Source: Rikenellaceae bacterium
GTDB lineage: Bacteria > Bacteroidota > Bacteroidia > Bacteroidales > Rikenellaceae
Length of the DNA: 64,000 nt
Direction: 5' to 3'
Assembly (NCBI GenBank): GCA_015060065.1
Contig: SUZF01000006.1
Location: 30,207 to 94,206, forward strand
Position 1 is the first letter of the stretch, and the number at the start of each line of letters is the position of its first letter. Below are positions 35,144-54,237 of the stretch, in pieces. The translations under genes and the position numbers were made by a program. The notes beneath the pieces were generated by a model, which did no database searches, was not told the origin of the DNA, and saw nothing but the letters and a program-made list of their open reading frames with translations.

Positions 35144-35337
35144 TCAACACAGAACCGATGCGGAACAACCATCTGCTTTGCGGTTGTAACCATCTGCACG
35201 AATCGAGCATCTGCAAGATTGTGGAGTTGTCATTTGTATCATCCACTGCACCAACCATATCGCCATAGTTGCTTGCCACGTGCCAATACACCTTTCACTC
35301 CTCTCGCCTCTCTCGCTCCTCGATAAGGCAATATCTA

Positions 35338-35566
35338 TGAATCTTCTTCCATCCGGACTTTGACCGTCGGTATCGGAATTTCACCGATTCAGTCCCTCTC
35401 GATTGCTTTCATCAGCGCGGCAGAAAATCCTGCATCGAATCTCTGCTTGCTCTGCACCTCTCTGCGCCCTTTGCACCCTTTTGCGCCTCTCTGTGCCTCT
35501 TTGCGCCTCTCGATTGGGAGTCGTGGACTATCACCACCGGTGGGGAATTTCGCCCCGCCCTGAAAA
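35338..35566 (-). ncRNA. FMN riboswitch (RFN element) with enlarged variable arm
   Basis: On -: TTTTCAGGGCGGGGCGAAATTCCCCACCGGTGGTGATAGTCCACGA ... GGTGAAATTCCGATACCGACGGTCAAAGTCCGGATGGAAGAAGATTC matches the RFN consensus. Confidence 0.93.
35395..35516. repeat. Repeat-filled insertion inside the FMN riboswitch variable arm
   Basis: 11-bp direct repeat CCTCTCGATTG at 35395-35405 and 35506-35516, bounding degenerate ~10-bp repeats (TTGCGCCTCT, CTGTGCCTCT, TCTGCGCCCT, TTGCACCCTT). Confidence 0.7.
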
Positions 35567-35639
35567 TCGATGCAAATATAGTGAAAAATTTCGTATGTGC
35601 GACAAAAATTGTATATTTGTTATGTTGTTTATATCCGAT

Positions 35640-38084: not shown

Positions 38085-38158
38085 TAGCGGGAGAGAGACT
38101 TGAACTCTCGACCTCATGATTATGAATCATGCGCTCTAACCAGCTGAGCTATCCCGCC
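38085..38158 (-). tRNA. tRNA with CAT anticodon (tRNA-Met; Ile2 not excluded)
   Basis: On -: GGCGGGATAGCTCAGCTGGTTAGAGCGCATGATTCATAATCATGAGGTCGAGAGTTCAAGTCTCTCTCCCGCTA; cloverleaf by eye, CAT in the anticodon loop. Confidence 0.92.
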
Positions 38159-50589: not shown

Positions 50590-50990
50590 GGTTTTTTGTG
50601 AATTTTGTGTTTTTTGGGGAGGGCTGGAACGCCGAGGAGAATGGGGAAAATGAGGAGAATGAGGAGAATGGGGATAGTGGGGATAGTGGGGGCGCGGTCT
50701 GCGACCGCTTATGGGGAATTGATAATTGATAATTGACAATTGATAATTGACAATTGATAATTGATAATTAAGCGGCTGATGGCTAATTTAGTAGAGTATA
50801 GAGAGTTTAAGGAGTTGGGGGTCGATTCCCTAAATTCCCCAGTGTCCCCAGTGTCCCCAGTTTCCCCAGTGTCCCCATAAGCGACCTTGGTCGCGCTCCC
50901 CATATCCCCCATAAGCGGTCGCAGACCGCGTCCCCAGCGTCCCCAGTTTCCCCATAAGCAATCTTTGATTGCGCCCCCATTCTCCCTATT
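50590..50990. repeat. REP-like hairpin cluster A (family 1, 4 hairpins)
   Basis: Hairpin cores: 50688-50715 (-, GCGGTC/GACCGC), 50873-50901 (+, GCGACC/GGTCGC), 50907-50935 (+, GCGGTC/GACCGC), 50950-50978 (+, GCAATC/GATTGC), embedded in CCCCAGTGT/GGGGAGAAT minisatellite. Confidence 0.85.
50716..50772. repeat. AT-rich minisatellite
   Basis: Tandem (G)AATTGATAATTGACAATTGATAATT units. Confidence 0.75.
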
Positions 50991-51016
50991 CTCCCCATCC
51001 TCTCTTATAGCCATTG

Positions 51017-51061
51017 ACCCCTCCGGTCTTCGACCACCTCCCCTAAAACAGGGGAGGAGTT
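51017..51061 (-). repeat. Dispersed hairpin repeat family 2, copy 2
   Basis: On -: AACTCCTCCCCTGTTTTAGGGGAGGTGGTCGAAGACCGGAGGGGT. Confidence 0.75.
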
Positions 51062-51258
51062 TTTACCCTTCCCCCAAAAGCCAATTGGCTAACATCCAAT
51101 AAAAAAAAACGGGGCAGTAGAGTAGAAAAATTTTGATAATTCAAAAAAAAATCCTACCTTTCGGGCTGAAATAGAGATAAACAGAGTTTTTTGCAAACCA
51201 ATTTATTCGATTTTCGACAATACTTTTTACTTTAATATTTCACTTAAATTTCAACACT

Positions 51259-53169
51259 ATGAAAAAATTCAGACTTTTGCTGATGATGTTGTTGGCTGCT
51301 GCTGTATCGTTCACAGCCTGCAACAATGGCGGTGAGGAAGTTACTCCCACCGATCCGAATGATCCTACCGTTGTCGTAACTCTTGACGAGGAGGAACTCT
51401 ATCCCGACGCATTTATGGCGAAGGTGGTTACCACCAATGCCGAGAAGGCTGCTTGGACGGTTGTTGCTCACGATGAGCCTGTTGTTGTTGCCAATGTTTT
51501 GGCAGAGGGTGTTCAGATTCCCGCAGGCGAACTTAACAATGCCGAGGTTCCCGCATTGGTTCTCGCCGAGGATTTGACGCCCGCTACTGCTTATGACCTC
51601 TACGTTGCTGTTGAGGGTAATGGCAAGCAGGTATTGAGCGCACCTCTCTGCGTTACCACTGCCGAGGCAGAGGCTCTTGGCTCGGTTGTCGAGTTCTATG
51701 TTGATAACTCTATGGGCGGAGGTAACGTAACCGTTGGAGGTATGTCGATGATGGATTATGGCAGTAAACCCGGTCAATACATCATGATCGATGCCTATGG
51801 AGAAGATGGTGAGACCCTTGAATATTCTGCCAAGTTGATAATGTTTGACTATGATTATGCGGACTTTGGATGCACGAGTTATTCGTATCTGACTGGTCAC
51901 CACTATCCCGTTGTTGCAGGAAGCCTTGATATGGGTCCGCTCCCGACTACAAGTGCATTGATGGCAGATCCGGGTTATACCAACTTTACCGTTAAGGGCA
52001 AGACTTATTTCCCCGTAGTTCCCACAGCCGAGGCTGATGCAGAGGGTAATCCTTACGGCGTTACCGTGACAACCATGGTTCCTTATGGTCAGGATTTGAA
52101 TATGCTCGAATTCAACCTGCCGGTTATCGATGAAGATAATAACGAGTATGTTCTCGTTGGTTCATATATAGGTCCTGTGGGCTATCAGTTGTCGAAACCG
52201 AAATATCCGTTTGACCTCGAAGAGTGGGGCTATACCGAGTACGTGGCAACACAGGAGGGTAGCATCATCACTCTTACATGCGATACTTACCAGGGTAAGT
52301 TTGAGATGGCATTCGATATCTCGCACAATGATAACGTATTTGCAGCCGAGGCTGATGCAGAGCAAGGTGTTACTTATATTGCCGGCGAGGATTGCAACTG
52401 GTCTGGTTACTACTTTATACCCGGATTGGACGAGGCTACTTATTACTTCAATGAGGGTAGCCGTATTGCACTGTTCAAGACCGAGACAGAAGGTGAGTAT
52501 CGTATCTCTGTGGGTCGTACCTTGGAGGGTACTGGCTCTTCTTGGACTATGTCGTCAGAGTCTTCGTCCTATGATTATGAGGTGCCTCTTGGTGACTACA
52601 CTATCAAAGTAACCGGACTGGGGGGGGGCTCTGATACTCCCGCAACAGAGGCTTACTCGCTTATCAGCACCGTAGAGAATCTTACCGCAGGTACCTATTA
52701 TATGGCTGCGTATGCGGCTGCTAAGAACGACGGAACTTCGTTGGAGCCTTATGTATATCAAGTGTTTAGTGGCAATGCTGGTACTAGTAGCGGTAAAACA
52801 GATCTTTATACTTCGGGCTATGAGTATGCTAATGGCGATTTGACTCTTGACCCTTCTAGCTCCAACTATCCCGCAGTCGATGTGGTGCTCGAAGCAGTTG
52901 AAGGTCAGGCTAACCAATACTATGTGAAGAATACCAAAGATAACAAATATCTTGCATCGTCTTCGACTGCTAATCGACAGTTGGCATTGCAAGACGAGCC
53001 GTTTGCTTGGACCGTATCTAACCACGCTAATGGAGGTGTAGCTTTGGTAGGCGGAGGCGTAATGTGCGGATCTGCAAGCGCTTCTTCAAAGTTTATTCGT
53101 TCATATGTAAATGATGAGAATAATGTTGCTAATGTTAAGTTCGGTCTGTACTTCTTCAAGAAGAACTAA
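51259..53169 (+). CDS. Hypothetical surface lipoprotein with internal poly-G tract
   Basis: 636 aa; lipobox SFTAC; Fn3-like LTPATAYDLYVAVEGNGKQV; G9 tract at 52620-52628 encodes the GLGGGS linker. Confidence 0.75.
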   Translation: MKKFRLLLMMLLAAAVSFTACNNGGEEVTPTDPNDPTVVVTLDEEELYPDAFMAKVVTTNAEKAAWTVVAHDEPVVVANVLAEGVQIPAGELNNAEVPALVLAEDLTPATAYDLYVAVEGNGKQVLSAPLCVTTAEAEALGSVVEFYVDNSMGGGNVTVGGMSMMDYGSKPGQYIMIDAYGEDGETLEYSAKLIMFDYDYADFGCTSYSYLTGHHYPVVAGSLDMGPLPTTSALMADPGYTNFTVKGKTYFPVVPTAEADAEGNPYGVTVTTMVPYGQDLNMLEFNLPVIDEDNNEYVLVGSYIGPVGYQLSKPKYPFDLEEWGYTEYVATQEGSIITLTCDTYQGKFEMAFDISHNDNVFAAEADAEQGVTYIAGEDCNWSGYYFIPGLDEATYYFNEGSRIALFKTETEGEYRISVGRTLEGTGSSWTMSSESSSYDYEVPLGDYTIKVTGLGGGSDTPATEAYSLISTVENLTAGTYYMAAYAAAKNDGTSLEPYVYQVFSGNAGTSSGKTDLYTSGYEYANGDLTLDPSSSNYPAVDVVLEAVEGQANQYYVKNTKDNKYLASSSTANRQLALQDEPFAWTVSNHANGGVALVGGGVMCGSASASSKFIRSYVNDENNVANVKFGLYFFKKN

Positions 53170-53194
53170 TCGAATCTTGATTTAGCGATTTTTT

Positions 53195-53226
53195 GGCGCA
53201 GACTTTTCGGTCTGCGCCTTTTTTTT
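53195..53226 (+). terminator. Intrinsic terminator
   Basis: GGCGCAGAC-ttttcg-GTCTGCGCC followed by T8. Confidence 0.88.
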
Positions 53227-53370
53227 GGCAGATGGGTTGGATGGGTTGGATGGAGATTGTGGGGGCGCGGTCTGCGACCGCTTATGGGAAGAGTGGGGAG
53301 CGCGACCAAGGTCGCTTATGGGGATTTTTTTGAGCATAGTCATTCTCCCCAATATTCCTAGCGTCCCCGG
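53225..53370. repeat. REP-like hairpin cluster B (family 1, 2 hairpins)
   Basis: 53261-53288 (-, GCGGTC/GACCGC) and 53295-53323 (-, GCGACC/GGTCGC); starts with GATGGGTTG repeats. Confidence 0.85.
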
Positions 53371-53378
53371 TCTAAAAA

Positions 53379-53927
53379 CTAATGCTTATTGCGAAAATCA
53401 AGGCGTGCCTTGGTAAGACTCTCACGAAAACCGCCATTCTTGACGAAGATATTATACTGATATTGGATATATCGAGAAAGCAACATATCTGCTTGATGTA
53501 TCAATACAATCGCCATATTGGATATTACCTCGTCACTACGGCTCTGCGCAAGGGCAAGGAAATATTCACTATCATCGTGTTCCCGACCAAGTTTGCGCAT
53601 TGCTTTAACCTCGGCAGAGTCATTTGCCCACATCCGCAAATTGCGCACTCGCAGATAGTCTTCGTAATCAGCCAGTAACTCGTGTAAACTCGCTCGTGCC
53701 ACATTCAATAGTTTTAGAAGCGTTTCGGAAGAGGTTGCGGCAGCTTCGGTTGCCTCGATGATATTCTGCTTACCCGACCGTGCGGCTTGTACCATTTGGT
53801 CTATGGTACGGTCACCGCGTTTGAGATATTTCTCACAAAAATAGTATGTAATGTCGTAGATTATCTCGGCCTTGCGATAAGCAATCAATGAGCGATAACC
53901 ACCGGTGTATGAAACCAAATCTTTCAT
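53379..53927 (-). CDS. Four helix bundle protein (23S rRNA IVS/S23-like) with suffix domain
   Basis: Start at MKDLVSYTGGYRSLIAYRKAEIIYDITYYFCEKYLKRGDRTIDQMVQAARSGKQNIIEATEA; C-terminal FVKNGGFRESLTKARLDFRNK. Confidence 0.85.
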   Translation of the reverse strand: MKDLVSYTGGYRSLIAYRKAEIIYDITYYFCEKYLKRGDRTIDQMVQAARSGKQNIIEATEAAATSSETLLKLLNVARASLHELLADYEDYLRVRNLRMWANDSAEVKAMRKLGREHDDSEYFLALAQSRSDEVISNMAIVLIHQADMLLSRYIQYQYNIFVKNGGFRESLTKARLDFRNKH

Positions 53928-53969
53928 ATTAGCAAATTTAGCACAAAATTTCTCATTACACAACTTTGG

Positions 53970-54237
53970 GAGAAGTTTTTTGGGTGAATTTTATGGGTTT
54001 TGGGGAGAATGGGGAGAATGGGGGCGCAATCAGAGATTGCTTATGGGGGATATGGGGAGCGCTCCCTGTGGGAGCTTATGGGGATTTTGTTAAAAATGGT
54101 CATTTTCCCCAATGTCCCCAATGTCCCCAGTCTCCCCAGTTTCCCCAGTTTCCCCAGTCTTCCCCATAAGCGGTCGCAGACCGCGTCCCCACTATCCCCA
54201 TTCTCCCCACTATCCCCATTCTCCCTAACCGCCACCT
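53970..54237. repeat. REP-like hairpin cluster C (family 1, 3 hairpins)
   Basis: 54020-54048 (-, GCAATC/GATTGC), 54054-54083 (-, GCTCCC/GGGAGC), 54162-54190 (+, GCGGTC/GACCGC). Confidence 0.85.

Follow-up and report, generated by a model that had tools for sequence, protein, structure and literature searches.

What keeps a small hairpin paired while the letters of its stem change from copy to copy? The question is raised by a stretch of 64,000 nucleotides (the window) in the genome of a Rikenellaceae bacterium (GenBank assembly GCA_015060065.1, contig SUZF01000006.1, positions 30,207 to 94,206), in which region 50590-54237 contains exactly nine copies of the frame CCCCATAA-GCNNNN-loop-N'N'N'N'GC-GY-CCCC, the ninth (53281) with CCC in place of CCCC. 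A preliminary description of this DNA had listed nine such hairpins with their stems, places, and orientations, and every one was borne out by the sequence and by extraction of the copies. Their core, CCCCATAAGC, occurs eight times in the window against 0.09 expected. These hairpins belong to an apparently undescribed family of short multi-hairpin repeats that lies between the genes of ruminant-gut Alistipes. The explanation that we favor, and to which we attach about even confidence, is a non-autonomous intergenic repeat whose hairpins, as DNA or RNA, are maintained through structural constraint and renewed by copying from arm to arm or from copy to copy.

Pairing is preserved as stems change

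Across 31 distinct hairpin copies from this genome (G000), 98.4% of stem cells are paired, compared with 83.4% when the 3' letters are shuffled and 22-43% when the partner is slid by one to three columns. Both sides have changed in five of the six stem pairs, and the covariation score (0.615) lies far above the scores for shuffled (0.28) and slid (at most 0.20) partners. Single G000 copies also carry compensated outer pairs (ACGGTC/GACCGT and GTTCCC/GGGAAC). When segments were taken from linker to linker with no requirement for pairing, stems of at least 4 bp were found in 244 of 359, compared with 45 after shuffling; the segments devoid of such stems were mostly minisatellite or a form with a tandem G.A mismatch. 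The core count, the covariation, and this linker-anchored excess of stems rule out chance repeats. The preliminary claims that stem changes keep pairing, and that they require either selection on structure or a templated process, are both supported by these data.

Orthologous elements in related genomes capture individual changes. Slot 1 of the element P1 reads GCGAAC-GGA-GTGAGC in genome G005 and GCGACC-AAC-GGGAGC in G057, a difference of five changes in seven bases that preserves pairing in an otherwise near-identical element. In the element Q5, GGGTT-AAA-AACCC corresponds to GGGCT-AAA-AGCCC, a compensated C-G/T-A change, and a neighboring stem carries a one-sided break. The imperfect hairpin GCGACC-AAC-GGGAGC fills the first slot in five relatives, and the first-slot classes of G000, GCGACC-TT-GGTCGC and GCTCCC-ACA-GGGAGC, each retain exactly one of its arms. 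It looks as though each arm had served once to resolve the mismatch, a reading that draws on slot homology.

All of this could be produced by mutation with no function whatever, if the replication of a quasi-palindrome repeatedly switched template from arm to arm and rewrote one arm from the other. The one-arm classes, the block replacement at P1, and the double change at Q5 speak for such a process, which is documented for RNA hairpins (PMC8794818). Arm copying would, however, erase the tandem G.A mismatch GCGA..GAGC, which is kept in dozens of copies in several genomes; loop inversions were not noticed; and the incoming P1 word is present elsewhere in G057, so that conversion from copy to copy fits equally well. 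G-U intermediates, moreover, exist: 15 stem transitions leave a G-U pair on the C-rich strand, as against 6 that disrupt pairing (p ~0.04), in a hand-sorted tally of events that are few, partly linked, and not all independent. We regard purely mutational maintenance as unlikely.

Ordered arrays across the genome

The nine copies do not stand alone. In the draft assembly of G000 (1.86 Mb, 37 contigs, 92% complete), the pattern CCCATAAGC-N8-16-GCG gave 64 unfiltered matches against one for the reversed control, and reading of the loci assigned about 70 hairpins to seven classes: GGTC (24), GACC (15), AATC (14), a longer GCAGGAGCAGGGCGACTGC form (7), AGTC (5), AGCC (3), and TCCC (2). Copy totals are based on pattern and profile searches. 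Contigs C6, C14, C16, C19, C25, and C35 end inside or beside arrays; the draft thus breaks at these repeats and probably understates their number.

Each hairpin is a stem-loop of 14-15 nt within a frame of ~29 nt, preceded by the linker CCCC-ATAA and followed by G-Y-CCCC. An all-against-all comparison placed the repeated DNA of G000 almost entirely within intergenic arrays of roughly 80-870 bp. Also present in the arrays are a minisatellite (CCCC-N5), a 7-bp repeat (AATTGAT(A/C)), and a hairpin module of a second kind. Minus hairpins precede plus hairpins in all 14 two-sided arrays, so the whole array can fold back, and a GACC or TCCC hairpin comes first in 13 of 13 same-strand pairs within 60 nt. 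The stems had been likened to barcodes, a term that the data do not support: they form a small vocabulary tied to slot position and species, with loops and 3' flanks specific to each class, and are therefore better described as sub-family or slot identities.

The GCAGGAGCAGGGCGACTGC hairpin, located at L041, L043, L044, L047, and L056 (seven copies), retains the 3' part of the AGTC class, has lost the perfect stem, and always follows a GACC hairpin. In four or more genomes, the AGTC hairpin has a repeat of ~260 bp next to it (L043:4470-4730, L047:3650-3930, and L056:3690-3950; loci of G148, G146, and G031).

The innermost opposite hairpins are of unlike class in 14 of 14 G000 arrays, where 2.9 same-class pairs would be expected (p ~0.03). 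Stem diversity might accordingly be selected because it keeps copies of opposite orientation from forming long palindromes, which SbcCD-like nucleases would cut (for the heterodimer idea, see Di Nocera et al. 2013, PMC3733652). Once duplicated arrays are collapsed, however, p rises to ~0.13; cluster A itself holds a same-class opposite pair (50708 on the minus strand, 50915 on the plus strand); and such selection would account for the variety of stems, not for the mechanism by which they change. We judge this explanation improbable.

Composites in related genomes

All genomes compared are draft metagenome assemblies. Of 180 Alistipes genomes, 11 matched profile R1, a covariance model of the single hairpin, and 20 matched profile R2, a model of the whole composite; elsewhere in the Bacteroidales, R1 matched none of 394 genomes and R2 none of 389. 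The E-values of both profiles are rough. A broader pattern search of 101 Alistipes genomes gave mostly chance matches, and the apparent copies outside the Rikenellaceae in a genome-wide pattern scan were rejected as chance-like, GC-rich sequence lacking the C-rich frame. Viral contigs held no convincing copy of this family. Carriers from the scan of GTDB are metagenome-assembled genomes labeled Rikenellaceae bacterium or Alistipes sp., and the carrier isolate names that give a source refer to the gut of sheep, goat, yak, and water deer. RmlA, tried as an anchor for orthologous loci, was set aside: its best relatives are ~80% identical and are not repeat carriers.

In the related species the composites measure ~100-150 bp, have conserved ends, and usually hold three hairpins in a set order, the stems being species-specific. 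In five genomes (G057, G005, G047, G049, and G132) the order is GCGACC-AAC-GGGAGC or GCGAAC-NNA-GTGAGC, then GGGCG-GAA-CGCCC, then GCAGTC-GCA-GACTGC, linked by GCCCCCATAAA. The G070 composite runs AATC, GGGCG, and AGTC or GCACC, and many of its copies add a second, inverted trio (TGACC, GCGACC..GGGAGC, CAAC); the stems of G138 are AAGC, GGGCT, GTGCC, and GCACC. The linkers fall into several coordinated dialects: GCCCGATTAA in G011; CCTCCTATCAA in G132; GCCGTCATAAA in G132, G134, and G005; and CCCCCAGTAA in G134, G047, and G049. Composite ends common to several species read AAAGCGCA...TGCGCC(T/G)TGAC (AAAGCGCA...TGCGCCTTGAC), and the GCGCA/TGCGC inverted arms at these ends could close the hairpin group. 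From some composites a hairpin is precisely absent, leaving CCCCCAGTAACCCCC, as if the slot had been emptied (G057 loci L181, L140, and L212; G134 loci L472-L477).

Arrays also differ by gain. A duplication of ~290 bp distinguishes G000 from G031 (P6), and a tandem composite copy distinguishes G049 from G057 (P3). Some loci are filled in one genome and vacant in another: two in G057 have empty counterparts in the window, and one in G047 has an empty counterpart in G070.

Half of the G000 arrays with two called neighbors (11 of 22) lie between convergent genes, an enrichment over the window, where 7 of 39 gene pairs are convergent; the neighbors were called from a simple scan of open reading frames (ORFs). 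Transcribed arrays might serve the host as 3'-end stabilizers, bidirectional terminators, or attenuators. This siting would suit such a role, as would the very stable folds (z of -9.6 for cluster A and -8.8 for cluster C against shuffles), the strand-biased tolerance of G-U pairs, and the position of several G057-type composites, which lie on the sense strand 28-45 bp ahead of a start codon. Against it, locations are not conserved, as the empty loci show, and the orientation of the C strand relative to genes is mixed. The CCCCATAA hairpins, furthermore, have no T run (U tract) of their own, the scan for intrinsic terminators giving a single weak match over part of the 54075 copy; only the neighboring second family has such a tract. 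A host-serving RNA element strikes us as fairly unlikely.

A second hairpin family

Beside cluster A lies a hairpin of a second family (51037-51057) with a U tract, unlike the CCCCATAA hairpins. Contigs of the IMG/VR database carry the frame of this second family with many different perfectly paired stems (GTCAC/GTGAC, GTCAGC/GCTGAC, GCCTGC/GCAGGC, GGCGC/GCGCC, and others), and most of the matched copies are paired. The combination of a constant C-rich frame and a variable hairpin is thus not confined to Alistipes. The second family (CCCCTCCG-hairpin-CACCTCCCCT) looks widespread and undescribed.

Setting within the window

The features are collected in Table 1. Cluster A lies between divergent genes, cluster B between convergent genes, and cluster C between two co-directional genes. 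Other details of the preliminary description were also confirmed here: the minisatellite CCCCAGTGT/GGGGAGAAT joins the copies, clusters A and C hold copies in opposite orientations and can fold back, and both clusters begin with the boundary GTTTTTTG..GTGAATTTT (at 50592 and 53976). That boundary is found at none of the other G000 repeat loci and is therefore local.

Table 1. Repeat features of the window, in window coordinates
Feature	Position	Strand	Remarks
Second-family copy	about 43338	-	CCCCTCCG-hairpin-CACCTCCCCT...AGGGGAGG, covarying stems
Cluster A	50592..51060		one minus hairpin in a G-rich arm; 7-bp AT-rich repeats; three plus hairpins in a C-rich arm; second-family hairpin/terminator after these
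Hairpin 50708, class GGTC	50688..50716	-	cluster A; CCCCATAA-GCGGTC-GCA-GACCGC-GCCCCC
AATTGATAATTGAC 7-bp repeats	50718..50772	+	center of cluster A; module recurs in many further G000 arrays
Hairpin 50881, class GACC, first slot	50873..50901	+	cluster A; GCGACC-TT-GGTCGC
Hairpin 50915, class GGTC	50907..50935	+	cluster A; GCGGTC/GACCGC
Hairpin 50958, class AATC	50950..50978	+	cluster A; GCAATC-TTT-GATTGC
Second-family hairpin beside cluster A	51018..51060	+	CCCCTCCG-GTC-TTC-GAC-CACCTCCCCTAAAACAGGGGAGGAG and T run; terminator-like
Hairpin 53281, class GGTC	53261..53288	-	cluster B; GCGGTC/GACCGC
Hairpin 53315, class GACC	53295..53323	-	cluster B; GCGACC/GGTCGC; first slot in C-strand order
Cluster C	53976..54237		two minus hairpins in a G-rich arm, one plus hairpin in a C-rich arm; whole cluster folds into a single long, imperfect hairpin
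Hairpin 54040, class AATC	54020..54048	-	cluster C; GCAATC-TCT-GATTGC
Hairpin 54075, class TCCC, first slot	54054..54083	-	cluster C; GCTCCC-ACA-GGGAGC
CCCC-N5 (9-bp) minisatellite joining hairpins	54105..54161	+	cluster C
Hairpin 54170, class GGTC	54162..54190	+	cluster C; GCGGTC/GACCGC

ORF 51259-53169 encodes a secreted-looking product with no Pfam match and contains a run of nine to ten G at ~52620-52630, a possible slippage site. The window also holds an FMN riboswitch (35337-35571, minus strand) and a tRNA (38085-38158, minus strand), both ordinary.

Relation to REP elements

The preliminary description had called the hairpins REP-like, after the repetitive extragenic palindromes (REPs), which in their classical form are mobilized by RAYTs (REP-associated tyrosine transposases, Y1 enzymes of the HUH class). 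That likeness is supported: the repeats are palindromic, within the 20-40 bp size range of REPs, and present in many extragenic copies, they occur as inverted pairs, and their sub-families are species-specific. Two defining features are nevertheless lacking. Y1_Tnp (PF01797), the domain of RAYT and IS200-type transposases, was absent from all 31 genomes searched (G000 and 30 relatives, all carriers found included), while control genomes gave the expected matches, and the foot of the hairpin is TTATGGGG/CCCCATAA here and CCCCCAGTAA, GCCCGATTAA, CCTCCTATCAA, or GCCGTCATAAA in relatives, not GT[AG]G or CGTC. Membership in the REP/RAYT system consequently fails, although the behavioral likeness is strong; we reject RAYT-driven mobilization, which we hold to be very improbable. 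CGTC-REPs have likewise been described without a dedicated transposase (Di Nocera et al. 2013, PMC3733652), which gives the absence of Y1 here a precedent.

Among the compound forms of REPs, the REPIN is a mobile unit of two REPs in inverted orientation; inverted arms are found in all 14 two-sided arrays of G000, but the units of relatives have three hairpins on the same strand. Set beside miniature inverted-repeat transposable elements (MITEs), which have terminal inverted repeats and the target-site duplication of a resident transposon, the composites of several species have conserved ends with inverted arms, and no target-site duplication could be read. Several repeat modules share one intergenic array and arrays gain by segmental duplication, as in bacterial interspersed mosaic elements (BIMEs). 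No named family has come to light, in keeping with the preliminary description: at the Rfam gathering score the arrays matched nothing (relaxing E to 1 gave sub-threshold, chance-level matches only), and we found no description of Bacteroidales REPs or of these motifs in the open-access literature.

A proposed course of evolution

The structure of the repeats, their slot order and dispersal, the pairing-preserving changes at orthologous elements, and the absence of Y1 transposases are observed directly; we infer mobility, constraint as the reason for kept pairing, and arm or copy conversion as one route of change. Under the favored explanation, the repeat is a dispersed element in which a recurring linker connects a few short hairpin slots, and it would spread in the manner of BIMEs or REPINs as multi-hairpin composites are copied around the genome and duplicated segmentally. 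It sits mostly downstream of or between genes, with pairs of arms in opposite orientation. The conserved entity would be the hairpins themselves, as single-stranded DNA or RNA. Stems may drift and regain pairing by two-step compensation, for which G-U intermediates are seen; by a second route, the hairpin tip may be replaced as a block, from the other arm or from another copy. Stems would be homogenized within a genome, each slot taking its own stem between species.

Several points weigh against this explanation. No Y1 mover was found in the 31 genomes searched, and no clean target-site duplication could be read because the intergenic flanks are too diverged. The hairpins could persist by mutational arm copying without selection. 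Many contigs end in these repeats, so that in draft assemblies the arrays may be partly misassembled. The hand-sorted G-U tally and the simple calls of neighboring genes are further weaknesses.

A bolder explanation, which we advance only tentatively, sees RAYT-free modular mobile repeats: a conserved end-to-end scaffold with interchangeable slots, its stems rewritten block by block (templated by an arm, or through conversion between copies) and homogenized genome-wide into a vocabulary and dialect specific to each species, all perhaps driven by an unrecognized process acting on single-stranded DNA. The second hairpin family, far wider in range and with the same variable-slot logic, would on this view suggest that the process is general among gut bacteria. 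These repeats offer dozens of natural, recent paired-change experiments on stems of 5-6 bp, so that two-step selection and one-step templating can be tested directly against each other in close strains. The abundance of REP-like repeats in Alistipes that lack the REP-spreading transposase implies that another enzyme, or recombination alone, can spread them.

Comparison with known systems

Two systems resemble these arrays by description only. Cyanobacterial small dispersed repeats and short tandemly repeated repetitive sequences of the CCCCAGT type likewise combine small hairpin repeats, variable in ways that keep pairing, with an adjacent C-rich minisatellite, in another phylum and with a unit of 7 rather than 9. 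Neisserial mosaic intergenic elements, which are mentioned in PMC3733652, also form mosaic intergenic arrays of several repeat types.

Other parallels concern the stems. Hairpins maintained by template switching (PMC8794818) share stem changes that occur in blocks and keep pairing, and perfect stems resolvable from one arm. The Alistipes case differs in being one of dispersed intergenic repeats, in its persistent tandem G.A mismatches, and in the fact that we noticed no loop inversions. The pattern of paired change has a precedent: stem "sequence types" have been described for GTAG-REPs (PMC3733652), and REPIN spacers also show paired changes (Bertels and Rainey 2011, PMC3116915). REPINs with RAYTs (PMC3116915; for TnpAY1 classes, Quentin et al. 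2018, PMC6006769) are alike in being non-autonomous palindromic units with compensatory changes in the pairing part, whereas the Alistipes units lack the Y1 transposase and contain more than two hairpins each.

The GTAG- and CGTC-REPs and BIMEs (PMC3733652) are similar in their short intergenic palindromes (20-40 bp), their clusters of opposite orientation, their sub-families that differ in the stem, and their siting between convergent or unidirectional genes. The Alistipes repeat, by contrast, lacks the tag; its conserved part is the linker (CCCC..ATAA) rather than the hairpin; and its hairpins occupy fixed slots of a multi-hairpin composite that is written in several coordinated linker dialects.

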